Shown here: piece by piece, positions 4,130 to 33,023 of the stretch | Layout: each line of letters opens with the position of its first letter | Position numbering within the stretch: position 1 is the stretch's first letter | Source of the DNA: Candidatus Coprocola pullicola | Lineage (GTDB): Bacteria > Bacillota > Clostridia > Lachnospirales > Anaerotignaceae | Reading direction: 5' to 3' | DNA length: 33,023 nt | NCBI GenBank assembly: GCA_018715395.1 | Contig: DVLQ01000146.1 | Span: forward strand, 1-33,023 | Translations under genes and position numbers: made by a program | The notes under the pieces: generated by a model | What the model was told of the DNA's origin: nothing | What the model saw: only the letters and a program-made list of their open reading frames with translations | The model's database searches: none

Positions 4130-4427
4130 AAAGTGCAAACAAACTGTATTTTACAAATATAATATCTCCAAGGGGTTAGCAAACAAAGGCTTTCTCAAAT
4201 GCCATACCACCCAAAGGCTTAACAAAACAAGTCTTTCCCAAAGGCAATATCACCCAAAGGCTTAGCAAAAGAAGCCTCCCCCAAATACCATAACCAAAAT
4301 TTACTTCCAACAAGCAAAACAGCCCATTTCAAGCCATTTATGCCCAACCAACTGTTTATACTTCTATCGACTCGACAGCAACGACTTCAATGAAATGCGT
4401 CTTTGACCAAGGGTTGTCTACTTTGTC
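4130..4427 (+). repeat. Interspersed repeat, long copy with internal triplication
   Basis: Begins AAAGTGCAAACAAACTGTA, contains the conserved core AATTTACTTCCAACAAGC and CTGTTTATACTTCTATCGAC, and ends GGGTTGTCTACTTTGTC. It differs from the other copies in carrying three tandem versions of a ~45-bp module (CCAAAGGCTTAACAAAACAA and variants) where the others have one. The left end abuts a hairpin, GGACCTCTTTCATAAAGAGG. The ORF-track frames 4074-4265 and 4390-4638 lie inside this and the next copy and are not genes. Confidence 0.8.
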
Positions 4428-6427: not shown

Positions 6428-7237
6428 TTGAGTCAAACCAAAATAAAAGTGCTGCTTGCAGACGACAATAAAGAGTTCTGCGATGTGGTGGTCAGCTATC
6501 TGAATAAACAGGAGGACATCACAGTTGTAGCCGTTGCTTACGATGGAGTGGAGGCCTGCAACAAAATACAAGAGCATCGCCCTGATATTGCCATTATAGA
6601 TGGCATTATGCCTCGTCTAGACGGACTCGGTGTTTTAGAACGTCTACACAAAAACAAAGAAGGCTTTCATCCTGTCTGCATTATGCTTTCCGCCATCAGC
6701 CAGGAAAAGGTCATACAAAAAGCAATGGACTTAGGCGCCGCTTATTATATCGTAAAACCTTTTGATATGGAATCTTTAGCTAGCCGTATTCATCAGCTTA
6801 TTTATGAAAAATCCACGCCAAAAACATTCGTTTCGCAAGGCTTTGCAGTACAATCTAATTCAATGGCTTCCCCTTCCCCTGCCTACGATTTGGAAACAAA
6901 AGTAACCAATATACTGCACGAAATCGGTGTGCCTGCTAATATCAGAGGATACCATTATATGAGAGAGGCTATCATTATGTCAGTCAATGATATGGACGTA
7001 CTAAACTATATTACAAAAGAACTGTATCCATCTATTGCAAAAAAATGCAACACGACGCCTTCTCGTGTAGAAAGAGCCATTCGTCATGCCATTGAAGTAG
7101 CTTGGAATCGTGGAAAAGTTGACGCTATTGACGCTTTATTTGGATACACAGTAAATAACCATAAAGGAAAACCAACAAACTCTGAATTTATCGCTCTAAT
7201 TGCCGATAGATTGCGTTTGGAGCAAAAAGCCAGCTGA
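6428..7237 (+). CDS. spo0A: Stage 0 sporulation response regulator Spo0A
   Basis: Master transcription regulator of sporulation. Residues 1 to about 125 form a receiver domain with the acidic pocket LLADDN, the phospho-acceptor Asp in [12 protein letters not shown], the Ser in MLSAIS and the conserved Lys in YIVKPFD. After a linker, the C-terminal ~110 residues are the characteristic Spo0A DNA-binding domain ([52 protein letters not shown]). The length of 269 residues is standard. The start codon is TTG, following GGAGGG at good spacing. In many Firmicutes spoIVB lies just upstream; here the upstream neighbour is the CYTH gene. A promoter sits at 6306 and a terminator at 7263. Confidence 0.97.
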
Positions 7238-13990: not shown

Positions 13991-14539
13991 AATTCATGTA
14001 TAAATAAATATTACTGTTTTACACTTTTTTACTATATCTGTCGCCTACACCAAATAATGTTAATCTACTTTATTTTTTATCTGTATGCTCACTTTTACTA
14101 ATATAGAAATAGAATAGAAACAACATTCAGACATTATGGCATTTACTTTCCTTCTTATAATACTTTCTTATGTTTTGGGTTTTATATGCATATTGGTCTA
14201 TGATATTTTAAGATAACAACAATATATGATTCATTTCTTCACTTTGAATACAATAAATTTTTAATATAGATAGAAAAAATTCTTTTTTATAGTTTTCAAA
14301 TTGCTTTTATATATATTGGAAAGATTAAAAACTTTTCCTTTTACATTTGGTTAAACCAGTGATTTTATGATACCTGCTTCCGTCACAATCAAAATCACTA
14401 GTAAACTAGTGGTTGAAACAACCAAAGAGTATTACATGCTTATTTCTTAAAAAGGAATATTAAAGATTTGGCATCACATTGCAATTACAGACAGTTACTA
14501 AAAGTCACTGTTTGTTTTGCCTTATTCTCCTTTGCTACC
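13991..14539. other. Gene-free AT-rich DNA with an IS-end-like palindrome
   Basis: No convincing gene. At 14354-14440 the sequence AACCAGTGATTTTATGATAC is mirrored by AATCACTAGTAAACTAGTGG, which gives nested palindromes around ACTAGTAAACTAGT. This looks like the subterminal hairpin of the IS200/IS605 remnant that follows. A 26-codon hydrophobic frame at 14136-14216 has no ribosome-binding site. Confidence 0.35.
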
Positions 14540-14985
14540 CATAAGCGGGGCTGTATACTCTTTTATCTGCTACATCATCTTCTTCCAACTGATTTTTTAT
14601 ATATGCTTTTATCGCTTTTTCATTTCATCCTACTACATCTACAAAATATCCTCTCGCCCAAAAATTTCTTCTCCCATATCTATATTTCAAATTAGCATGC
14701 CTGTCAAACATCATCACCCCACTCTTAATCCTATAAACTGTGTTACACTCAGATATGGTGGTATACTGACTAGCATATGGATATAGTCTGGACATGCTTG
14801 TGCTTGAATGCTCTCACCCTTTTTTCTGTACACCATTTTCTAATGATTCTATATTCGCTCTTCATTGTTTGTATATCACTTTGCTTCTATATTTTGGTGC
14901 AAACATTATATGATATTGGCGTCTATATTTGGAATGTGCAGTACTTTTTATTTGATTTTTCATGTACTAAAGTTGGTGCTAGAAT
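14540..14985 (-). pseudogene. Decayed IS200/IS605 TnpA transposase
   Basis: Translation of the minus strand across frame changes and stops gives pieces of the small Y1 (HUH) transposase TnpA. They include YHIMFAPKYRSKVIY near 14950-14900, an ACPDYIHMLVSIPPYLSVTQF segment near 14800-14740 (the ACPDHIHMLVSIPP core with the metal-binding His), a piece like the NLKYRYGRRNFWARGYFVD block near 14690-14640, and the C-terminal KNQLEED motif. Several stops and frameshifts make it inactive. An IS3-family remnant is inserted immediately next to its 5' side. Confidence 0.65.
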
Positions 14986-14990
14986 GTAAA

Positions 14991-16194
14991 TAGTGCAAGT
15001 CAAAATGAAAAATTCCAAATAGAAAATATATGGTACAATAGAAGTATCGTACTGAAGGAGGATCTCATAAGGAACTTGGCGTTCGTGGCTGTGCACAGAA
15101 TCTCAGTTTAACTTACAGCACTCTGAGAAAATGGCTGAGAGATTTCCGAGGAATCCGGAGATATCTCTATCTGTTGCTTGGGTAATTATGCTTTCGATGC
15201 ACAAAAAAGAGTGTGTCCAACTAAAGAGGGACTGGGCGATGCACAGTACACGCTTGATGTATTAAAAAAAGCTATCAGCATTATGGGAAAATAACAGAAT
15301 CCATTTATATCGAAATTTCTAAAAAGACGGAAGCTGCCAGAAAGCAAAATCGCCGAGTTTACGTTTCTGAAATGCTGAAATATTTAGGCGTTTGGCGGTG
15401 AGGATACCGTTCATGACGCAACCGTATTAGAAAAACACATAGAATGCATAAAAGCCAAAATGCAGTATATCCACAATGAACCAAAACAAAACTATGGCGC
15501 TCCCAAAATTATCGGAAAACCCTTTCACAAGGGAGAAACTGTCTCGGAACGTACTGTTAAACAAATGGAAATTAAAGCCCAACGGATAAAACCATGAACC
15601 AGAACTACCATAGATTCCGATTTCAGTAACGAACTTCAAAATATCCTTGATAAACAGTTTGCTCCTAGTCGTTCAAATGCGGTATGGTATTGCGTATATC
15701 CGGACAAGCAATGGCTTTGTCTATCTGACAAGTATTATGGATCTGTTTTCTCGTAAGATGATTGCTTGAACGCTCAGCCGGACATTAGATGTTTCTGTGT
15801 GATTGATATCATCAATAAAGTCAGACATAACGCCGATCTGCTGTTGATGATCCACAGTGGCAGAAAAAGTCAGTATGTATCCCAGGTATATGGAGAAGCT
15901 ACTACAAAAATGCAGTATAGCTGCTGGAAAAGGGCTTTTTTATGAGATAATGCATGCATGTATCAAATCACTTCATGCACTCATCAAACGGCAATGTCTG
16001 AACCAGTTTAAAATATGTGATTATCAGCAAACATATCGTTTGGTATGCGAGTATATGGCAGTCTTTTACAACATCAAACATTTGCGATTTCATATCACCA
16101 AATGACTTTAAAAAGCTATATGAGCAGATCAAGGCAAACGAACTGCTCTTAGTAAGTTAATATGAGGATAAATTTCTCATTTTAACTTGTGCTA
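14991..16194 (+). mobile_element. Decayed IS3-family insertion sequence
   Basis: Terminal inverted repeats are visible: TAGTGCAAGTCAAAATGAAA on the left against TAGCACAAGTTAAAATGAGA read from the right end. The element is ~1.2 kb. Inside, frame-shifted fragments match an IS3/IS150-type transposase. OrfA-like LGVRGCAQNLSLTYSTLRKW lies near 15080. OrfB-like pieces follow: NYGAPKI, TSNGFVYLTSIMDLFSRKMI near 15700, a degraded GSQYVSQVYGEA segment near 15870, and FKICDYQQTYRLVCEYMAVF near 16010-16070. Only fragments remain open (for example 15857-16105), so it is inactive. Confidence 0.75.
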
Positions 16195-16258
16195 AATCTT
16201 GACATAAAACCATAGAAAGCTTATAATTTATTTTATTAATAAGGGGGGGTATCTTTTT

Positions 16259-16843
16259 ATGAAAAAAAGAATATGGTTGCTTTTTCTGTCACTATTTTGT
16301 TTGACTGCTTGTACAACTTTTGAAACCACAGAAAAAACTACAGAAGAAAACACAATATCTGACACAGAAACCGCATCACAACAAGAGGGCACTGTCTACA
16401 ACAAATCTTTTGGTACTTACACCGTTGCTAATGGTTGGATAGAAAGCGAAACCTTTTCTACAGAGGACAAGTTTTTCTATATTGCCGAAACTGACCAACA
16501 ACAAACTCGTCCCAACAATATTTCTATCAATATGGGGAGTAACTTCTATTCCTTAGACGACCATGTTTCTTTTCGTAAAGCCATATTGAATCAGCTTGCG
16601 GCACAACTTCCTCAGGATGTAGTACTAAATGGCAGCGGCAGTTACACAGATAATGACTATGTGTTATATACATTTACATTCACCATCACAGACAAAGAAA
16701 ATTCTCTTATTGCCACACAATATTATATTGTAGGGGATTACAAATACATTATGGTGTATGAAAGTGTTTATGATGAGTCAAACAAAGAAGAAACAGATAT
16801 GGTAGCAAAAACCATTGTAGATACATTTTTGTGGGCAGAATAA
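16259..16843 (+). CDS. Putative lipoprotein
   Basis: A 194-residue secreted lipoprotein. It has a signal peptide (KKRIWLLFLSLFCL) with lipobox LTAC, so the Cys at about residue 18 should be lipidated. A Thr/Glu-rich linker follows and then a globular domain from about residue 48 with strands such as GTYTVANGWIESETF. The pattern (short mature domain, GNW/NGW turn, terminal amphipathic helix) resembles the other lipoprotein in this window at 26965, and both may have a PsbP-like fold, which is inference only. The ribosome-binding site is a run of seven G (16243-16249), which could make translation sensitive to slippage. The gene sits between decayed IS elements and has no operon partner. Confidence 0.75.
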   Translation: MKKRIWLLFLSLFCLTACTTFETTEKTTEENTISDTETASQQEGTVYNKSFGTYTVANGWIESETFSTEDKFFYIAETDQQQTRPNNISINMGSNFYSLDDHVSFRKAILNQLAAQLPQDVVLNGSGSYTDNDYVLYTFTFTITDKENSLIATQYYIVGDYKYIMVYESVYDESNKEETDMVAKTIVDTFLWAE

Positions 16844-16899
16844 AAAAAGCCTTTTTTTATTGTACGGTACCCCCTGTTCAACTGGAGATAAGTAAAAAT

Positions 16900-17450
16900 A
16901 CTTCAGAAACCTCCGGCGCTATAATAAGTTCGACAATCAAAATATAGTAGCAGGAGGTTTTGTCAATCCATGACATAAGAAGTTTATCATATTGCAAATG
17001 GAGATATAAATATCATATTGTGTTTGTGCCTAAATATGACAGATAAGTAATATACAAAAAACGAAATGCCCATATTGAAAGAATATGAAGAGCAATAGCC
17101 CAGGTGTAAATATCGTAAAAACAGAATGTTGTTTAAATCATATACATATACTGATTAAGATTGCACTGCATTTGAATATATCTAGTTTTATGGGATATTT
17201 AAAGAATAAAAGTAGTTTAATGTTGACAGGTATGTAAATTTAAAATACAAGTATGAAAATCGCATTTTTGGTGTAGAAGATATTTTGTGGATACAGTAGG
17301 CAGATACGAAACAGCAATGAAAAAATACATCAAAAATCAGTTAGAAAATGATAGCATAAACAATCAAATCATTTTAAAAGAATTTACAGACCCGTTTATG
17401 GGTGAGTCGGTGAAATAAGACAAAAAAATGCCCCCAGTAGGGGGCAGCCG
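16900..17450 (+). mobile_element. Decayed IS200/IS605 element with tnpA remnant
   Basis: The left end has the inverted pair AAACCTCC...GGAGGTTTT (about 16908-16960). tnpA pieces follow from 16970 to 17418: WRYKYHIVFVPKYDR at the start and YFVDTVGRYETAMKKYIKNQ plus KEFTDPFMGES at the end, broken by several stops and frame changes. After the final stop comes the hairpin GCCCCC-AGTA-GGGGGC (17430-17445), typical of an IS200-type right end. It is on the opposite strand to the similar remnant at 14540-14985. The exact outer limits are uncertain. Confidence 0.75.
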
Positions 17451-17580
17451 AAGTTATAAATGTGGTTGTCAGACTATTCAATGCTCCTCTTAATGAGATG
17501 ATCACAAGAGATAGATCCTTATAAAGTCTGGTCAAACCATCCGTTGAACGAGTAGTTTTGATTATATTATAACCATTCTA

Positions 17581-17856
17581 TTATATTCTCTCCAAAGAAG
17601 CAAAAAACATTTCATAAGAGTCTTCCCAGCCTTCTCTTGGGTAGCTGGCACCGCCATTACAGCTTTTTAGTAAATTGGAAAAATATTCCTCCCCCTCTGC
17701 AAACAGTTCTCCCACAGTCATCGCAAATCCACTTTCTGTTGCCAGTTGGCAAAATGCCAATGCAGGGTCTTTTGCCTGTTTGGTTTCAAAAAGCATTTGT
17801 TTGAAAGCCTCATCTTTTTTTGCTTTTTCCAGCAGCTGAAATAACTTTTCATTCAT
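17581..17856 (-). CDS. Nif11-like leader/domain protein
   Basis: A 91-residue protein resembling the Nif11-like leader peptides of RiPP precursors. It has an N-terminal helical segment EKLFQLLEKAKKDEAFKQML, then DPALAFCQLATESGFAMTVGEL (the typical 'aleva-like LA..GF..t..EL' block), and a Gly-Gly site in LKSCNGGASYP. The tail after the GG is 23 residues, ends in EGWEDSYEMFFASLERI and has no Cys, so a lanthipeptide core is doubtful. The ORF track starts at 17886, but AGAGGGG precedes the ATG at 17856, 16 bases after the upstream dehydrogenase stop, so the two are probably co-transcribed. No maturation enzyme or exporter is visible nearby. Confidence 0.6.
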   Translation of the reverse strand: MNEKLFQLLEKAKKDEAFKQMLFETKQAKDPALAFCQLATESGFAMTVGELFAEGEEYFSNLLKSCNGGASYPREGWEDSYEMFFASLERI

Positions 17857-17872
17857 TTGCAACCCCTCTTTT

Positions 17873-18739
17873 CTATTCATTTTCATAAAACTGTATCAAC
17901 GCTTGTGTTCCCAGTTCTCCATCTCCGGCACGCTCCATAGTTTCATATGTATTGCGTACTACCTGTAATACATTCAAAAAAAGTCCTCTTTCTTCAGATT
18001 CTTCCATAGCAATGTTTAAATCCTTTACATAATGTTTGATAAAAAATCCCGGTGCAAAATCCCCTTTTAAAATTCTTGGCGCCATATATTCCATTTGCCA
18101 GCTACCCGCCGCACCTTTTGCAATACTCTCCAACATGGTTTTTAAATCCAATCCTACTCTTTCACCATATACCATTGCCTCACAAAGACCTGATATAACG
18201 CCTGCCAATGCAATTTGATTTGCCATTTTTGTATGTTGTCCACTACCGGCTTTTCCTTGATAGACAATATTTTTGCCCATGGCTTCAAAAATATCTTTGC
18301 AATGATCAAATACTTCTTTTTCTCCTCCAACCATAATCGAAAGAGAGCCTTGTTCTGCCGCAATATCTCCTCCGGAAACTGGAGCATCCAGTGCAAAAAC
18401 CCCTTTTTGTTTTGCTTGTTCATATATTTTTACAGACAATTTGGGGCTTGTTGTTGTCATATCAATAACATAAGCTCCCTTTTTGACATTTTCTAAAATA
18501 CCCTCTTTTGCAAAATATACTTCTTGCACATCTTTAGGATATCCTACCATGGTAATCACAGCGTCTTTATCTTTGACACAATCTGCTATGGTATCGCACC
18601 ACAAAGCCCCTTGTTCTATAATAGGTAAAGCTTTTTGCTTTGTTCTTGTATAAATAGAAACAGAAAAACCTTTTTTAAGCAAATTTGCCGCCATGGATTT
18701 GCCCATTACACCAATTCCAATAAAACCTATGTTTTTCAT
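17873..18739 (-). CDS. NAD(P)-dependent beta-hydroxyacid dehydrogenase (3-hydroxyisobutyrate dehydrogenase/GarR type)
   Basis: Oxidoreductase that interconverts a beta-hydroxyacid and its semialdehyde. 288 residues, the family's standard length. The N-terminal Rossmann motif is IGFIGIGVMGKSMAANLLKKG. The substrate-binding motif is DAPVSGGDIAAEQGSLSIMVGG, and the catalytic Lys lies in GSGQHTKMANQ. The C-terminal all-helical dimerisation domain follows. The exact substrate (3-hydroxyisobutyrate, tartronate semialdehyde or succinic semialdehyde) cannot be told. AAGGAG lies 8-10 bases before the ATG. The small Nif11-like gene follows closely on the same strand. Confidence 0.9.
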   Translation of the reverse strand: MKNIGFIGIGVMGKSMAANLLKKGFSVSIYTRTKQKALPIIEQGALWCDTIADCVKDKDAVITMVGYPKDVQEVYFAKEGILENVKKGAYVIDMTTTSPKLSVKIYEQAKQKGVFALDAPVSGGDIAAEQGSLSIMVGGEKEVFDHCKDIFEAMGKNIVYQGKAGSGQHTKMANQIALAGVISGLCEAMVYGERVGLDLKTMLESIAKGAAGSWQMEYMAPRILKGDFAPGFFIKHYVKDLNIAMEESEERGLFLNVLQVVRNTYETMERAGDGELGTQALIQFYENE

Positions 18740-18860
18740 ATGATTTCACTCCTTTTTCTTTTCTACATACATTCATATAACATAAAAAACACTGAAAATA
18801 TTGCCCACTGTCAAAAAAATCTTCTATTTTCGCCTTTTAGGCTTTTTTAAAATATTCTCA

Positions 18861-19111
18861 GGTTCTATTCGCTTAATATAAAAATACAGAAATTTGTGAC
18901 AAATATATTTTTGATATCCATAATACTCTTTCCCATAACGATAAAGGCAATGACAAAAACAATGCCCACAAGAAATGATAAAATCTTTCAAAGTAATTTT
19001 TATATTTATGTATAAAAACAGCTCTTTTGTGTAAGAATCAGTATTTTAATTTGTTTTATTATACTTTCAATAAGGAGATATTTGCCTATATCATTTTAAT
19101 ATAACAGAATC
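18861..19111. mobile_element. MITE-like IS derivative, copy C (251 bp)
   Basis: Begins GGTTCTATTCGCTTAATATA and ends TCATTTTAATATAACAGAATC. The interior is collinear with copy B at 5384-5638 (AATATATTTTTGATA, ATCTTT.AAAGTAATTTTTATA, ACTTTCAATAA) and has no transposase sequence. It lies in the gap between the dehydrogenase promoter region and the glycosyltransferase 3' end. Confidence 0.7.
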
Positions 19112-23524: not shown

Positions 23525-23731
23525 TTATTGCACATCAACAACTGTATAGCCTGCATCTGTAACAGCTTTTACAAGAGTTTCTTGGCTAATTTCCTTTGTG
23601 GAAGAAACAGTTGCCGTTTTATTATCCAGGCTCACCTCTGCTGTCACCCCGTCTATGGCATTTAATGCCTGCTCCACTCTGGATGTGCAATGTCCGCACA
23701 TCATTCCTTCAATAGTCAATACTTTTTTCAT
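23525..23731 (-). CDS. copZ: Candidate internally initiated CopZ-like copper chaperone
   Basis: The last 68 codons of copA form a complete CopZ-type domain, [20 protein letters not shown] onward, with the Cu-binding GMMCGHC loop. Directly upstream, within the copA frame, stands AGGAGG with an 8-base gap to this ATG (minus strand). In related operons copZ is a separate gene next to copA. Either the stop between them was lost, or both a fusion and a free chaperone are made. Internal initiation is inference from the Shine-Dalgarno site alone. Confidence 0.45.
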
Positions 23732-26059
23732 TTTCCATTCCTCCTTATTTTCCCTTTTTTCACTATTTTGTATTTTGATTGTCCGCCCTTTTTCTTTTCT
23801 AAAATCAGGCTGAAACAATTTTAAACGCAAAGCGTTTGTTACCACAAATACAGAACTAAAGCTCATTGCCGCCGCGGCAAACATAGGATTGAGTTTCCAG
23901 CCCAACGCCGTATAAAACACCCCTGCCGCCAAAGGAATGCCAATGGCATTGTAAAAAAACGCCCAAAACAAATTTTGTTTGATATTTCGTATCACAGCAC
24001 GGCTTAGCTGTATTGCCGCTACCGCATCTAATAAATCGCTTTTCATCAATACAATGTCTGCCGATTCTATAGCAACATCTGTACCAGCGCCAATGGCAAC
24101 GCCTACATCAGCTCTGGCTAATGCAGGAGCATCGTTGATACCATCACCAATCATAGCCACCTTTTTCCCTTGCCGCTGTATTTGTCTGACTTGTTTTTCT
24201 TTATCTTGAGGCAGAACCTCCGCCACAACATTTGTCAGATTCACTTGCTTTGCAATGGCTTGTGCTGTTTGTTGATTATCTCCTGTGAGCATGACAACAT
24301 CAATGCCCATATCGTGGAATTTTGCAATGGCTTCTTTACTGGTATCCTTCACCACATCAGCCACTGCTATCACTCCCAAAAGCTTTTTATCCTCTGCAAA
24401 ATACAAAGGCGTTTTTCCTTCCTTAGCCAGAGCTTCTCCTTTTTGAAAAAGAATGTCTTGCTCAATTTTTTCTGCTTTCATCATTTTCATATTACCCGCA
24501 ATGACTTTTTTTCCAAAAACATCTGCTTTAATACCTTGCCCGGCAATGGCTTCAAAATTTTCTCCATTTTCAACAGCAATATTTTTTTCTTTTGCATACT
24601 TAACAATGGCTTCCGAAAGCGGATGTTCAGAAAGCTGCTCTACCGCCATAGCACTTTTTAATAATCTATTTTGAAATACGCCTTCTGCTAAAAGGATATC
24701 TGTCACTTTTGGCTTACCTTCTGTCACAGTTCCTGTTTTATCCAGTATCACTGTATCAATTTCGTGAGCAATTTCCAAGCTTTCTGCAGATTTTATCAAA
24801 ATACCGTTTTCCGCTCCCTTTCCTGTACCAACCATAATGGCTGTGGGTGTTGCCAAGCCTAGAGCGCAAGGGCAGGATATGACAAGCACCGCAATACCTA
24901 TAGAAAGAGCAAAGCTAAATGGATATCCCAATAATAGCCACACAATCATTGCAATCACAGCAATGGCAATCACTACCGGAACAAATATACCGCTGACTTT
25001 GTCTGCTAATTTTGCAATGGGAGCCTTGGAAGCACTAGCTTCTTCTACCAATTGTACAATTTGAGACAATGTGGTATCACTTCCTACTTTTTCTGCCTGA
25101 AATTTAAAATAACCTGTTTTATTTACTGTAGCTCCTATCACAGTATCCCCTATATTTTTTTCCACAGGAATGCTTTCTCCTGTCAATGCAGATTCATCCA
25201 CTGCCGAAAAACCTTCTACAACAATACCATCTACCGGTATACTTTGACCAGGGCGTACTACAATGATATCTCCTTTTTGTACCTGTTCTATAGGAACCTC
25301 TATTTCTGCTCCGTTTTTGAATATGGTAGCCTTTTTTGGAGCCAAGTCCAATAGCTTTGTAATGGCTTCTGATGTTTTTCCTTTTGAGCGCGTTTCCATA
25401 TATTTTCCTACTGTAATCAAAGTCAATATCATACCTGCTGATTCAAAATAAAATTCCATACCATAGCTGTGAGCCATTTGCATATCGCCATGCCCCATAT
25501 AATAGCCTATGGCATAAATGGCTCCGACACTATATACAAAAGCTGCTGTTGCTCCCAATGCAATCAAAGAATCCATATTAGGGGAACGATGCCATATTGC
25601 TTGAAAGCCTGTAGAAAAATATTTTCTGTTTAAATATAATATGGGCAATGTTAAAAACAGTTGTGTTAATGCAAATGACATCATATTTTCATGTCCCGAC
25701 AATATTTCAGGCAAAGGCATTCCCATCATATGCCCCATAGAAATATAAAATAACGGCACTAAAAATAGAAAAGACCAAATCAGTCTTTTTTTCATACTTT
25801 CCATTTCAGACTGTGCAATATTTTCCACCGGTATAGAACTATTTTCCGCCCCATGCACCTTTGCGCCATAGCCTCCTTGTTCTACAGCTTTTATAATTTC
25901 ATCATCTGTCAATTTTGTATCTTCATACTCCACTGTCATAGAATTTTGCAGTAAATTGACATTAACAGAACAAACACCCTGTAATTTTCCAACACTTCTT
26001 TCCACATGAGCACTGCAAGCGCTGCAAGTCATACCGGTTACATCAAATTTTTGTTTCAT
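23525..26059 (-). CDS. copA: Copper-exporting P1B-type ATPase CopA with fused C-terminal CopZ-like domain
   Basis: Cu(I) efflux pump, 844 residues from the preferred start. The N-terminal heavy-metal-binding domain (GMTCSAC, residues 1-70) is followed by six to eight membrane helices with the CPC ion motif ([13 protein letters not shown], about residue 396), phosphorylation motif DKTGTVTEG (about 440), HP motif SEHPLSEAI and hinge [16 protein letters not shown] (about 638). Residues 777-844 are a second HMA domain (GMMCGHC). It is preceded by an internal AGGAGG and ATG, so it looks like a copZ gene joined in frame. The ORF track starts at 26077, but that codon lies inside the CsoR operator, and GAGGTG precedes the ATG at 26059. 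The operon is copA-csoR. Confidence 0.93.
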
Positions 26060-26076
26060 ATTCATCACCTCTTCCA

Positions 26077-26098
26077 TACACCCCCCATAGGTATGGTA
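26077..26098 (-). promoter_or_regulatory. Candidate CsoR operator
   Basis: TACACCCCCCATAGGTATGG TA is GC-rich in an AT-rich surrounding, with a pseudo-palindromic ACC...GGT arrangement around CCCATAGG. This is like known CsoR sites of copZA operons (TACC..GGGGGTA type). It begins right after the -10 element of the copA promoter, so a bound repressor would block transcription. Confidence 0.65.
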
Positions 26099-26206: not shown

Positions 26207-26905
26207 TTAAAAAAATAAATTTCCTGCTGCATTTACCACACTGCAAACAAAAATCCCTACCATAGTAGGCAATAAAAAGGAAGTAATCGTCCATTTGACG
26301 CTTTTCGTTTCTTTTGCAATGGTCCATAGCGTTGTAGCGCAAGGAAAATGATTTAATGAAAACAATATTGCACAAAGTGCTGTCAATGCCGTCCAGCCAT
26401 TGACTCTTAATATCTCTCCCATTTCTGCCAATCCGGATACTTCTGTAAGCATGCTGCTTTGACAATAGTACATCAAAAGAATGGGAATGACAATTTCATT
26501 TGCAGGAATACCCAATATAAATGCCGCCAATATGATTCCGCTTAATCCCATAACACTGCCTAGGGGAGATAGCATTTGCGAAAACCCTTCCAACAGTGTC
26601 ATATCTCCCATAGTAATGTTTTGCAGCAGCCATATCAATGCGCCCGCAGGAATGGAAACACATATAGCTCTTCCCAAAACAAATATAGTTCTGTCAATGA
26701 CACTTCGCATGATTACTTTTAGAATCTGAGGTCTTCTGTAAGGAGGCAGCTCCAACGTAAAAGAAGAAGGAATCCCCTTTAATACAGTAGCGCCTAATAT
26801 TCTGGAAACAGCCAATGTAACCATAACAGAAAGCACTAACACAATCATTACAAACATTGCCGCCAAAAAAGGATTTCCCTCTGCAAAAAAAACACTGGCA
26901 AGCAT
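26207..26905 (-). pseudogene. FeoB-type ferrous iron transporter, C-terminal remnant
   Basis: 232 residues that match only the membrane C-terminal half of FeoB. They show ELPPYRRPQILKVIMRS, the Gate-domain segment DRTIFVLGRAICVSIPAGALIWLL, the GIPANEIVIPILLMYY block and the final NGWTALTALCAILFSLNHFPCATT motif. The GTPase (G1 GXXXXGKS) domain and the first helices are missing. Homologous residues continue upstream of the ORF-track Met (NGWGFPTIIM, like the CNGRFPT block of FeoB) until a stop at about 26951, with no start codon or ribosome-binding site. So the gene is 5'-truncated, probably by a deletion that ended at the terminator of the neighbouring lipoprotein gene. It could be translated from an atypical start, but it would lack the energy-coupling domain. 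Confidence 0.75.
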
Positions 26906-26939
26906 AATAATCGTAGGGAAACCCCAACCATTGTCAGAG

Positions 26940-29582: not shown

Positions 29583-29734
29583 ACCAATTTCCGCCTTTAT
29601 ATTGCTTTTTTTAAAAGTATATGTAAAAAAATAGAAATATTCACAGAAATTCTAGTTGACAAAAGAAATACTCTGCTACTAAAATGGTAAGCAATTATAG
29701 CAAAATCATTTATTTTTTAGAAAGGTGGAAAAAT

Positions 29735-30553
29735 ATGAACTCTACAACTGGATTTAATGGCAGTCAAAATTATGTAGCCTCTCAAGAACTGATGGGAGCT
29801 GTCAACATCGCTATGGCATTAGAAAAACCATTGCTTATCAAAGGAGAACCGGGAACGGGAAAAACCATGCTGGCAGAAGCCATCTCACAGGCTCTTGGCA
29901 AAAAACTTATCATATGGAATATCAAATCCACTACAAAAGCACAAGACGGCTTATATGTTTATGATGTGGTGCAAAGACTTTATGACAGCCAATTCGGCAA
30001 TGCCGGAGTGGATGATATTGCAAAATATGTAAAATTGGGAAAACTGGGCGAAGCCTTTGACTGTGAAGAACAAGTCATTCTTTTGATTGATGAAATCGAC
30101 AAAGCGGATTTGGAATTTCCAAACGACCTGCTTTGGGAGTTGGACAAAATGGAGTTTTATATTCCCGAAACAAAGCAAACCATTCGTGCAAATCATCGTC
30201 CTATTGTTATCATCACATCAAATGCAGAAAAAGAACTGCCGGATGCTTTTTTAAGAAGATGTATTTTCCACTACATTGCTTTTCCTACACAGGATTTGAT
30301 GGAAGAGATTGTAGCAGTACATTTTCCTCATTTGGATAAAACATTGTTAAAACAGGTTATGGAAACATTTTATTGGATTAGAGGACTTTCCTCCATACAA
30401 AAAAAACCAAGTACTTCAGAAGTTTTGGACTGGATACAGGCATTACTTCTTGGAGGCATCAGCGAAAAAACCATTCGAAAAGAAATTCCCTTTGCCGGAG
30501 TTTTGCTCAAAAAAAATGAAGACTTAGACGCATTGGAAAAATATAAAAAGTAA
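29735..30553 (+). CDS. MoxR-type AAA+ ATPase
   Basis: A 272-residue AAA+ ATPase. It has Walker A GEPGTGKTMLAEAIS (about residues 38-52), Walker B ILLIDEIDKAD, sensor 1 IITSNAEKELPDAFLRRC and the Arg-finger region. The ORF track starts at 29684, but AGAAAGGTGG precedes the ATG at 29735 (residue 18 of the listed frame), so I use that. MoxR ATPases work with VWA proteins as metal-dependent chaperones that assemble or activate enzyme complexes. The VWA gene follows after 14 bases, forming the standard pair. The substrate complex is not in the window. Confidence 0.9.
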   Translation: MNSTTGFNGSQNYVASQELMGAVNIAMALEKPLLIKGEPGTGKTMLAEAISQALGKKLIIWNIKSTTKAQDGLYVYDVVQRLYDSQFGNAGVDDIAKYVKLGKLGEAFDCEEQVILLIDEIDKADLEFPNDLLWELDKMEFYIPETKQTIRANHRPIVIITSNAEKELPDAFLRRCIFHYIAFPTQDLMEEIVAVHFPHLDKTLLKQVMETFYWIRGLSSIQKKPSTSEVLDWIQALLLGGISEKTIRKEIPFAGVLLKKNEDLDALEKYKK

Positions 30554-30567
30554 GGCAGGTGACAGCT

Positions 30568-31764
30568 ATGTTCAGCTCCTTTTTTTACCTTTTACGAGCC
30601 AGAGGTCTTTCTGTTTCTTTTAACGAATGGATGACGCTTTTGCAAGCATTGCAAAAAAACCTGCACCATTGCACTTTTACAGGCTTTTATTATGTTTGCC
30701 GAGCAATTCTTGTAAAAAGTGAAGCAGACTTTGACCGTTTTGACGGCGCTTTTTTAGAATATTTTAAAGATATTGAATTTACAAAAGAATTGCCAAAAGA
30801 ATTATTAGAATGGCTGGAAAATCCAAAAGACAAACCAAAAGATACATTTGACATGCAAAGAGCCATGCAAAATAATAAACTCTCACCAGAGGAAATACAA
30901 AAAATGTTTTTGGAACGCTTGGAAGAGCAAAAAGAAGAACACAATGGAGGCAGCTATTGGGTTGGTACAGGAGGCGTTTCTGTATTTGGAAACAGCGGAT
31001 ACAGTCCGAAAGGCATTCGTGTAGGGGGCGTTTCTCGTTACAAATCAGCATTGCAAGTAGCCGGGGAAAGAAACTTCAGAGATTTTCGTAATGACAACAC
31101 ATTGGATACCAGACAGTTTCAAATGGCATTTCGTCATCTTCGTCAATTTTCCAGTCGTATTGACGCACCAAAAACAGAATTTGACATAGACAGTACCATA
31201 CAAGCCACCTGCGACAATGCAGGAAAATTAAAAATGGTTTATCAAAAACCTAGAAAAAACACTGTCAAAGTGCTTTTGCTTATGGATTCCGGCGGTTCTG
31301 TGGAATATTACAGCCGCCTTTGCAGCGCTTTGTTTCAAGCAGTGAGCAAATCAAATCATTTTAAAGACTTAAAGGTATATTACTTTCACAACAGTATTTA
31401 TGCCAAAGTGTATACAGAACCTACACTGCGTACAAAACTTGCTATTGATACCAACTGGATACTCCAAAACATCAGCAGCGAGTACAAAGTAATCATTGTA
31501 GGAGATGCCATGATGGAGCCTTCTGAACTGTTAGGAAGTAGCTTTTTCAGCTATGGCGTTAGAGATGAAAAACCGGGAATAGAATGGTTTCAAAAATTGA
31601 AAGACAAATATCCCCACATTGTATGGCTCAATCCCGCAAAACGTCCTCAGTGGAGCGGCTATTGGTCACATACTTACGACATATTGGCTGAGCTTTTTCC
31701 AATGTATTATCTTTCTGTAGACGGATTGGAAGCAGCTTTAAAAAAATTACTTGTTTCGCGATAA
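30568..31764 (+). CDS. VWA domain protein (CoxE-like), partner of the MoxR ATPase
   Basis: A 398-residue protein. The N-terminal ~130 residues are helical (LRARGLSVSFNEWMTLLQAL; FDGAFLEYFKDIEF). The middle has a Gly-rich stretch (GGSYWVGTGGVSVFGNSGYS), and the C-terminal ~180 residues form a von Willebrand A fold. The MIDAS line reads LLLMDSGGSVE, that is D-x-G-x-S in place of the usual DXSXS, as in CoxE/YehL-type proteins. The end has WLNPAKRPQWSGYW. The ORF track begins at a GTG (30559). I prefer the ATG at 30568, because GCAGGTG lies 6 bases before it. It is translationally close to the MoxR gene and both probably act as one chaperone unit. Confidence 0.85.
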   Translation: MFSSFFYLLRARGLSVSFNEWMTLLQALQKNLHHCTFTGFYYVCRAILVKSEADFDRFDGAFLEYFKDIEFTKELPKELLEWLENPKDKPKDTFDMQRAMQNNKLSPEEIQKMFLERLEEQKEEHNGGSYWVGTGGVSVFGNSGYSPKGIRVGGVSRYKSALQVAGERNFRDFRNDNTLDTRQFQMAFRHLRQFSSRIDAPKTEFDIDSTIQATCDNAGKLKMVYQKPRKNTVKVLLLMDSGGSVEYYSRLCSALFQAVSKSNHFKDLKVYYFHNSIYAKVYTEPTLRTKLAIDTNWILQNISSEYKVIIVGDAMMEPSELLGSSFFSYGVRDEKPGIEWFQKLKDKYPHIVWLNPAKRPQWSGYWSHTYDILAELFPMYYLSVDGLEAALKKLLVSR

Positions 31765-31799: not shown

Positions 31800-32447
31800 A
31801 TGATGAAAAAAAATGCAGTCATTTTTGATGTAGACGGTACGCTTTGGGATTCTTGCCAAGCTGTTACAAACGCTTGGAATACCGCTATATCCAAATACCT
31901 ACAATTACAAAAAAACATTGTTACATTAGAAATGGTAAGAGGCTTTATGGGAAAGACCACACCTGAAATCGGCTCTGCTCTTTTTCCGGATATGGAATTT
32001 GAAAAAATGCTTTCTATCATGGAGCAATGTGGTAAAGAAGAAGAAATAGAAATTGCTAAAAACGGAGGCATTCTTTTTGATGATTTAGAAAACACTCTTC
32101 AAATACTTTCCCAAAAATATGACTTATATATTGTCAGCAACTGTCAAGCCGGTTATATAGAAGCCTTTTTTGACTATCATAAATTGGGACATTATTTTAA
32201 AGACTATGAAAATTCCGGCAGAACAGGCAAGCCCAAAGGAGAAAATATCAAACTGATATTGCAAAGAAATCCTATTGCAAAAGCTGTTTACATTGGCGAC
32301 ACACAAGGAGACTATGAAGCTACAAAAATTGCGCAAATTCCTTTTATCTATGCAGAATATGGCTTTGGCACAGTAAACGCTTCCGTGCCTTCTGTCAAAA
32401 ATATGAAACAAATTCCTTCTCAGGTAGATAGTATATTACAATCTTAA
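31800..32447 (+). CDS. HAD family hydrolase (phosphoglycolate phosphatase-like)
   Basis: A 215-residue haloacid dehalogenase superfamily phosphatase. Motif I is FDVDGTLWDS with the nucleophilic Asp. The cap domain (helical, subfamily I) covers about residues 20-95. Motif II is YIVSNCQAG, motif III has the Lys in GRTGKPKGENI, and motif IV is YIGDTQGDYEA. The presence of WD after the DGTL box and the subfamily I cap fit phosphoglycolate-phosphatase or beta-phosphoglucomutase relatives; the substrate is not defined. GAGGAGGT precedes the start. It follows the VWA gene by 35 bases on the same strand and may be co-transcribed. Confidence 0.9.
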   Translation: MMKKNAVIFDVDGTLWDSCQAVTNAWNTAISKYLQLQKNIVTLEMVRGFMGKTTPEIGSALFPDMEFEKMLSIMEQCGKEEEIEIAKNGGILFDDLENTLQILSQKYDLYIVSNCQAGYIEAFFDYHKLGHYFKDYENSGRTGKPKGENIKLILQRNPIAKAVYIGDTQGDYEATKIAQIPFIYAEYGFGTVNASVPSVKNMKQIPSQVDSILQS

Positions 32448-32486: not shown

Positions 32487-32630
32487 ATGAAGCCAAAACA
32501 AATTAAAATCATTTCTCCTACTGCAAAACAGCAGGAAGGCTTTTGTAGTCGCTGCAATGAAATTTATACTGCTTTGTTGGAAAGAAACAGCAAAGGGTTT
32601 TTTTATCATACCAAAGAAAAACCAAACTAA
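32487..32630 (+). CDS. Small protein, first unit of a tandem array
   Basis: A 47-residue ORF starting MKPKQIKIISPTAKQQEGF with AAGGAG 8-9 bases before the ATG. It contains a CxxC pair (FCSRCNE), a helical EIYTALLERNSKG and a basic end FFYHTKEKPN. It is too short for the ORF track. The downstream DNA repeats it twice more in the same frame, with the Cys residues replaced. I do not recognise the family. The CxxC suggests metal binding or a redox pair in this copy only. It follows the HAD gene by 39 bases and may be read from the same transcript. Confidence 0.6.
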   Translation: MKPKQIKIISPTAKQQEGFCSRCNEIYTALLERNSKGFFYHTKEKPN

Positions 32631-32713
32631 TTTGGTTGTCATAAAAATAGTCTAAACATAAATCCACATCTTTGCTGTTTCTTTTTTAATCAATCTTTTT
32701 TATTTATGTTCTA

Positions 32714-32851
32714 ATGCTACAAATTAAAGTCTTTTCTCCTACTCCAAAACAACAGGAGGGCTTTTCTAGTCGCTATGATGAATCTGATATGGCTTTGTTG
32801 GAAAGAAATAGCAAAGGGGTTTTTTATCATACCAAAGAAAAATCAAACTAA
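32714..32851 (+). CDS. Small protein, second array unit
   Basis: A 45-residue ORF MLQIKVFSPTPKQQEGFSSR..., homologous to the ORF at 32487, in an intact frame to a stop at the same place. The CxxC of unit 1 is SxxY here. There is no Shine-Dalgarno site; the ATG overlaps the stop of a two-codon frame (ATGTTCTAATG), which could allow coupled re-initiation. Translation is therefore uncertain, although the open frame is preserved. Confidence 0.4.
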   Translation: MLQIKVFSPTPKQQEGFSSRYDESDMALLERNSKGVFYHTKEKSN

Positions 32852-32940
32852 TTTCTTTTGTCTTTGTGACAAAAGCAGTCCAAATTTAAACCGACATCAT
32901 TGTTGTTTGCTTTTACTCAATCTTTTTTATTTATGTTCTA

Positions 32941-33023
32941 ATGCTACAAATCAAAGTCTTTTCTCCTACTCCAAAACAACAGGAGGGCTTTTCTAGTCGC
33001 TATGATGAATCTGATATGGCTTT
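32941..33023 (+). CDS. Small protein, third array unit, cut by the window edge
   Basis: The first 27 codons of a third copy, identical in protein sequence to unit 2 over the visible part and differing by one synonymous base. It has the same upstream context (TTTTTTATTTATGTTCTA) without a ribosome-binding site. The end lies outside the window. Confidence 0.4.
   Translation, partial: MLQIKVFSPTPKQQEGFSSRYDESDMA

Follow-up and report, generated by a model that had tools for sequence, protein, structure and literature searches.

The ferrous-iron transporter gene feoB of Candidatus Coprocola pullicola is split by a DNA element of at least 6,984 bp (at least 7.0 kb, plus any unassembled array units), and an element splits feoB in every sequenced member of the genus (five genomes). 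We read it as a gene-intervening element of the skin/SPbeta/gin type, with an array of a small gene at its edge and with a predicted excision; our probability for this reading is about 0.68. Between the feoB halves lie a lipoprotein gene, a large serine recombinase gene, genes of MoxR, VWA and HAD proteins, the small gene and the array, which adjoins attL of the element.

The window, i.e. the whole 33,023-nt stretch analysed, is the complete contig C58 of this genome (G000). The N-terminal half of feoB and feoA are situated on another contig, C215 (locus L009). It was this division of feoB between the window and another contig that made an earlier note on the array miss its setting in an element.

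Table 1. Coordinates of the element, its attachment sites, genes and array units. Positions refer to the window unless preceded by L009.
Feature	Position	Strand	Remarks
feoB C-terminal half (FeoB_C, Gate)	26207..26918	-	no own ribosome site
attR	26919..26931	-	core TT (26919-26920) and arm ATGGTTGGGGT (26921-26931)
Putative lipoprotein, 184 aa	26965..27519	-	without Pfam family; inside the element in 5/5 genomes
Large serine recombinase, 511 aa	28047..29582	-	Resolvase, Recombinase, Zn_ribbon_recom (PF00239, PF07508, PF13408)
Mother-cell-type -10 (CATATACT)	29616..29623	-	41 nt before recombinase start
Sigma-A-like promoter (TTGACA ... TAAAAT)	29656..29685	+	MoxR-VWA-HAD-small gene operon; read by eye
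MoxR-type AAA ATPase, cargo	29684..30553	+	start probably 29735
CoxE-like VWA protein, cargo	30559..31764	+	a core gene of the family, single-copy, and without a second copy here
HAD-family hydrolase, cargo	31800..32447	+	
Small gene, founder copy of the array (unit 1; 47 aa)	32487..32630	+	located between HAD and attL in all five genomes of the genus; candidate directionality factor for recombination
Array unit 1	32498..32718	+	221 bp
Inverted repeat AAAGAAACAGCAAAG / CTTTGCTGTTTCTTT of unit 1	32581..32684	+	arms 32581-32595 and 32670-32684, T-run after; terminator-like
Array unit 2	32719..32945	+	227 bp; ORF 32714-32851 codes for 45 aa, with neither Cys kept and no ribosome site
Array unit 3, first 78 nt	32946..33023	+	cut by contig end; array goes on at C215 (L009:1-833)
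attL, partner of attR	L009:867-879		
feoB N-terminal half (FeoB_N, Gate)	L009:880-2229 (C215, 865-2229)	-	
feoA	L009:2216-2473	-	

Boundaries of the element and predicted restoration of feoB

The attachment sites read GGAAGA-TT-ACCCCAACCAT (attL) and ATGGTTGGGGT-TT-CCCTACG (attR). When their flanks were joined at the TT, the resulting GGA AGA TTC CCT ACG corresponded to the conserved NGRFPT of intact FeoB; the element is inserted between the feoB codons for NGR and FPT, and the predicted attB is GGAAGATTCCCTACG. In-frame FeoB (NGRFPTIIM, 689-690 codons) was restored in all four species where the joining could be tested (G000, G001, G002 and G003). The fifth genome, G004, has attL, with the feoB C-half on a different contig. 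Intact feoB is present in sister genera, while an intact version of this feoB was found in none of the five genomes of the genus.

The arms of the predicted attP (ATGGTTGGGGT-TT-ACCCCAACCAT) form a perfect palindrome in G000 (11/11 bp) and a weaker one in the other genomes. A palindromic attP with a 2-bp core is a known form among serine recombinases (PMC5595907). In G002 we observed two identical 8,531-bp copies of the element in tandem, with a junction that is exactly the predicted attP; the backwards control of the junction search gave 0 matches, and the other four genomes of the genus had no such junction. It may represent a tandem insertion or the assembler's unrolling of the loop of an excised circle (0 mismatches over 8,531 bp). 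Under both readings an attP junction existed, either in reads of a circle or in a tandem copy.

Gene content, selection and descent

The smallest version of the element (G001, 5.3 kb) has six genes, among which there were no phage structural, relaxase or transfer genes, and we therefore rejected the possibility of a prophage or of a conjugative or mobilizable element. In IMG/VR neither the recombinase nor the small protein had viral relatives. Compared with the 5.3-kb element, that of G003 has about 5 kb of additional cargo in the interval between recombinase and lipoprotein (L064, ~14200-19100). Directly downstream of the feoB C-half, the window carries a P-type ATPase gene, judged by eye to be of the copper type (23525-26077, minus strand).

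Both halves of feoB had dN/dS values of 0.07-0.17, compared to 0.09-0.10 for the intact feoB of a sister pair at similar dS. Element genes and feoB have equal dS (G001-G003, 0.27-0.54); this match indicates that the element has most likely been inherited along with its host from the ancestor of the genus onward. Taken together, the low dN/dS in both halves and the matching dS argue that feoB has not been lost for good.

The cargo includes core genes of the host. The VWA gene was detected in 51 of the 58 family genomes, in nearly all of the 51 as a single copy, and it adjoins MoxR in all seven family genomes examined. In this genus the only copies of MoxR and VWA are those inside the element. 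Loss of the element should thus be costly in a dividing cell and not in a doomed mother cell, and this cost may explain why the element became fixed.

Other insertions into feoB occur in the family. In four genomes (G019, G030, G028 and G044; loci L120, L121, L122 and L123) the split in feoB lies at a different, second site in front of MCMGFGCN, and genes of serine recombinases are situated directly beside or near the C-half; these splits make feoB appear to be a hotspot of element insertion in the family. The NGR/FPT site itself carries a 12-kb insertion in G040 (L118, G040:C2:447500-464500), whose recombinase is 39-42% identical and whose cargo, by eye genes of transporter and dehydrogenase-like proteins, has little in common with that described above. 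In G026 (L119) feoB is split at both sites, and the recombinase at the NGR/FPT site is frameshifted.

The small gene

The ORF of unit 1 is preceded by an AAGGAG ribosome site. Orthologues of 45-58 aa were found at the corresponding place in all five genomes of the genus, with ten invariant columns (K14, Q16, E17, F19, C23, Y27, L30 and L31 among them), and dN/dS between orthologues was 0.17 (G001-G003, p = 2e-4), 0.34 and 0.36. The small gene is under purifying selection, and for unit 1 the small ORF of the earlier note is borne out as a real gene. The note recognised no named family for the 47-residue product, and Pfam and NCBIfam likewise gave nothing above cut-off. The search of the genome contigs with the small protein returned three loci, all within the genus; among 392 genomes of the order there were no convincing relatives outside the genus. 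AlphaFold modelled the protein as one lone helix (residues 13-43, mean pLDDT 81.5).

The ribosome site and the CxxC pair had both been described as confined to unit 1. This holds for the ribosome site and for the sequence FCSRC, but unit C of the array also keeps a CxxC, and the pair is not a feature of the family, as the second cysteine (C23) alone is invariant among the five orthologues. A zinc-binding CxxC protein or zinc ribbon was rejected on the same ground. The idea of a toxin/immunity-like cassette found no support.

Excision by serine recombinases normally needs a small partner, such as GirX (42 aa; PMC5595907), SprB (58 aa; PMC4191935) or CD1234 (72 aa; PMC5025042), each reported to be without similarity to characterised proteins. 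The small protein is of comparable size, and in the smallest element (G001) its ORF is the only intergenic one with clear orthologues across the genus, which makes it the best candidate for a directionality factor; we would put this role at somewhat below even odds. None of the known directionality factors is similar to it. A competing possibility, to which we give nearly an even chance and which is compatible with the gene-intervening reading, is that the protein serves the MoxR-VWA-HAD operon in some minor way. The gene does follow HAD directly and in the same direction, a position common to all five copies, yet the protein is confined to this genus, whereas VWA is present in 51 of 58 family genomes.

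The tandem array

Tandem Repeats Finder called the array at 32498-33023 with a period of 221 and 2.4 copies. The array seen in the earlier note is thus real, although the three units of about 225 bp claimed there are, in the window, two full units and 78 nt of another. The window ends inside the array, and contig C215 starts with one partial and three full units (1-833) before unique sequence; extending the contig, as had been proposed, therefore brings the array to at least six units over both contigs. Relative to the repeat unit, the ends of the two contigs are a few bases apart and fall where some units have G and others A, a branch at which an assembler would be expected to stop. That they are neighbours is confirmed by the four relatives (G001-G004), all of which have VWA, HAD, the small ORF and feoB in that order on one contig. 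An assembly artefact was rejected, since the units differ by up to 18% and are spread over two contigs.

The array arose when the 3' part of the small gene was duplicated in tandem together with its terminator-like tail. The copies begin at a chance ATG created at the duplication junction (ATGCTACAAAT), without a ribosome site. Where unit 1 has FCSRC, units 2, 3, B and D read FSSRY and have neither cysteine. Unit C, which keeps the CxxC, is interrupted by an in-frame TAG, units A and B miss one T (GGGGTTTTTT to GGGGTTTTT), and unit D has gained a G behind the core. Hence the frame, described in the earlier note as preserved in its three units, is not maintained beyond the window. The note was correct in seeing no other than a synonymous difference (ATT/ATC) between units 2 and 3, a statement that rests on 1 of the 78 nt compared. 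Selection on the protein of the later copies, which had been considered, is not supported, given their stop or frameshifts, the missing ribosome sites and the loss of either the invariant cysteine or the frame. The proposed dN/dS check agrees: values between unit 1 and the copies (0.38-0.55) were not distinguishable from neutral, and a synonymous excess appeared only between a few near-identical copies.

Tails and cores of the units showed differing patterns of similarity, and this disagreement suggests conversion between units. We take the units after unit 1 to be decaying, probably inert satellite copies and regard the array, degenerate for the most part, as a minor feature of the element. 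Searches of the array found no credible Rfam match and no att-like sequences at up to 2 mismatches. In G004 (L065), short repeated motifs resembling CTGACGACAAAA occupy the corresponding intergenic place 3' of the small ORF, so that repeats accumulate at this end of the element in a second species too. A separate tandem array (43-bp unit, 2.9 copies) is located at 4161-4285 of the window.

Sporulation-like promoter motifs and predicted excision

SpoIVA was present in all five genomes of the genus. About 60 nt before feoA (42 nt in G004) each of them has the motif CACA-N16-CGTATA[TC]T, for which 0.009 chance matches are expected per such stretch; the intact copies of a sister genus have CACA-N15-CATATATT. 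The motif resembles a sigma-K promoter. In C. difficile, expression of feoA-feoB falls to 0.05-fold in a sigK mutant, the operon has a sigma-K promoter, and promoters of this kind have AC at -35 and -10 boxes of the CATA type (PMC3789822). The predicted promoter of the recombinase has a -10 box resembling the mother-cell type (CATATA[CT]T), which each of the five species carries at -39 to -42; the -35 is ambiguous. A response regulator at 6428-7237 (plus strand), by eye Spo0A, is in line with a spore-former.

By analogy with known elements, excision would probably take place during spore formation. The element would have integrated into feoB by means of its own large serine recombinase, which would be made from the mother-cell-like promoter in the sporulating mother cell. 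The enzyme would pair attL with attR and swap strands at the TT core, with the small protein as the best candidate for the factor permitting excision; the element would leave as a circle, and the rejoined feoB would be transcribed from the sigma-K-like promoter before feoA.

Alternative explanations

An old recombinase element that captured MoxR-VWA might be unable to leave, with feoB working permanently as a split protein made from two genes. The fixation and shared divergence of the element throughout the five species would fit such a locked state, as would selection against loss of core-gene cargo and the fact that the G000 assembly contains no excised form. We nevertheless consider it unlikely. 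The C-half has no ribosome site and sits behind a terminator-like hairpin that directly precedes attR, which speaks against a split FeoB protein; moreover, the recombinase is constrained (dN/dS 0.12-0.23), and an attP junction is seen in G002. It is quite improbable, in our view, that the element is an ordinary mobile one without a programmed role, its recombinase simply preferring a conserved feoB site and intact feoB existing in unsampled strains. The hotspot character of feoB would agree with this, since the NGR/FPT site is hit in G040 and G026 as well and the second site in the four genomes named above and in others, several of them near unrelated recombinases. On the other side, all five species carry the element with vertical divergence, and its 5.3-kb version has neither transfer nor phage genes.

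As for the array, its copies could be functional, either as several translated small proteins or as repeated terminators insulating the operon from feoB. The ORF of unit 2 is intact, the cores of units 2 and B differ by three synonymous changes to one nonsynonymous, and the terminator-like hairpins exceed those of shuffled sequences. Given the absent ribosome sites, the lost invariant cysteine, the frameshifts and the stop, and given that none of the four relatives in the genus has an array, we think a function very improbable.

Comparison with known systems

Extended to its full form, the gene-intervening reading would mean that an iron transporter of the mother cell undergoes programmed rearrangement throughout the genus, with the exit of a minimal recombinase element limited to the terminal mother cell by its only copies of MoxR-VWA and with a genus-specific protein of 45-58 aa as directionality factor; this is a tentative proposal, somewhat more apt to fail than to hold. 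The target gene feoB, the very small size and the core host genes on board are new here. In the open-access literature we found no paper on an element splitting feoB, though one may exist elsewhere. The products of the known split genes of this type that we found (sigK, spsM, gerE and yabG) are either spore regulators or proteins of the spore coat, the envelope and spore processing. If true, a split ferrous-iron transporter would extend programmed rearrangement to metal uptake and would show how an element can become permanent by carrying core host genes. The system offers a defined recombinase, an att pair and a candidate directionality factor of fewer than 60 residues.

Among phage recombinases, the closest was the integrase of Terrisporobacter phage TPELB_ph1 (PP197244; 45% identity over 74%), which belongs, in contrast, to a 36-kb phage genome. 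The feoAB operon of C. difficile (CD1518-CD1517; PMC3789822) has a like gene order, feoA-feoB, and a sigma-K-type promoter, but is not reported there as split. In B. subtilis SPbeta (SprA/SprB; PMC4191935), excision restores the split spsM and is controlled by the 58-aa SprB, as would be the case here; SPbeta, however, is a complete prophage with a recombinase expressed in growing cells. In skin of B. subtilis the recombinase is made in the mother cell, where the target is used, and the feoB element would follow the same logic. The skinCd element in sigK of Clostridium difficile (CD1231/CD1234; PMC5025042) is also a serine recombinase element and sits in a mother-cell gene, as the feoB element would, with a 72-aa directionality factor without database relatives; it is phage-like with 19 genes, and its excision was demonstrated, whereas here excision is predicted from sequence. 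In Bacillus cereus ATCC10987, gerE is split by the gin element (GirC/GirX; PMC5595907), which resembles the feoB element in being non-phage, in splitting a gene in frame, in having a large serine recombinase and att sites whose inverted repeats flank a central dinucleotide, and in its tiny accessory protein, GirX (42 aa). It differs in having 28.6 kb and three recombinases, compared to about 7 kb, one recombinase and core host cargo for the element in feoB.
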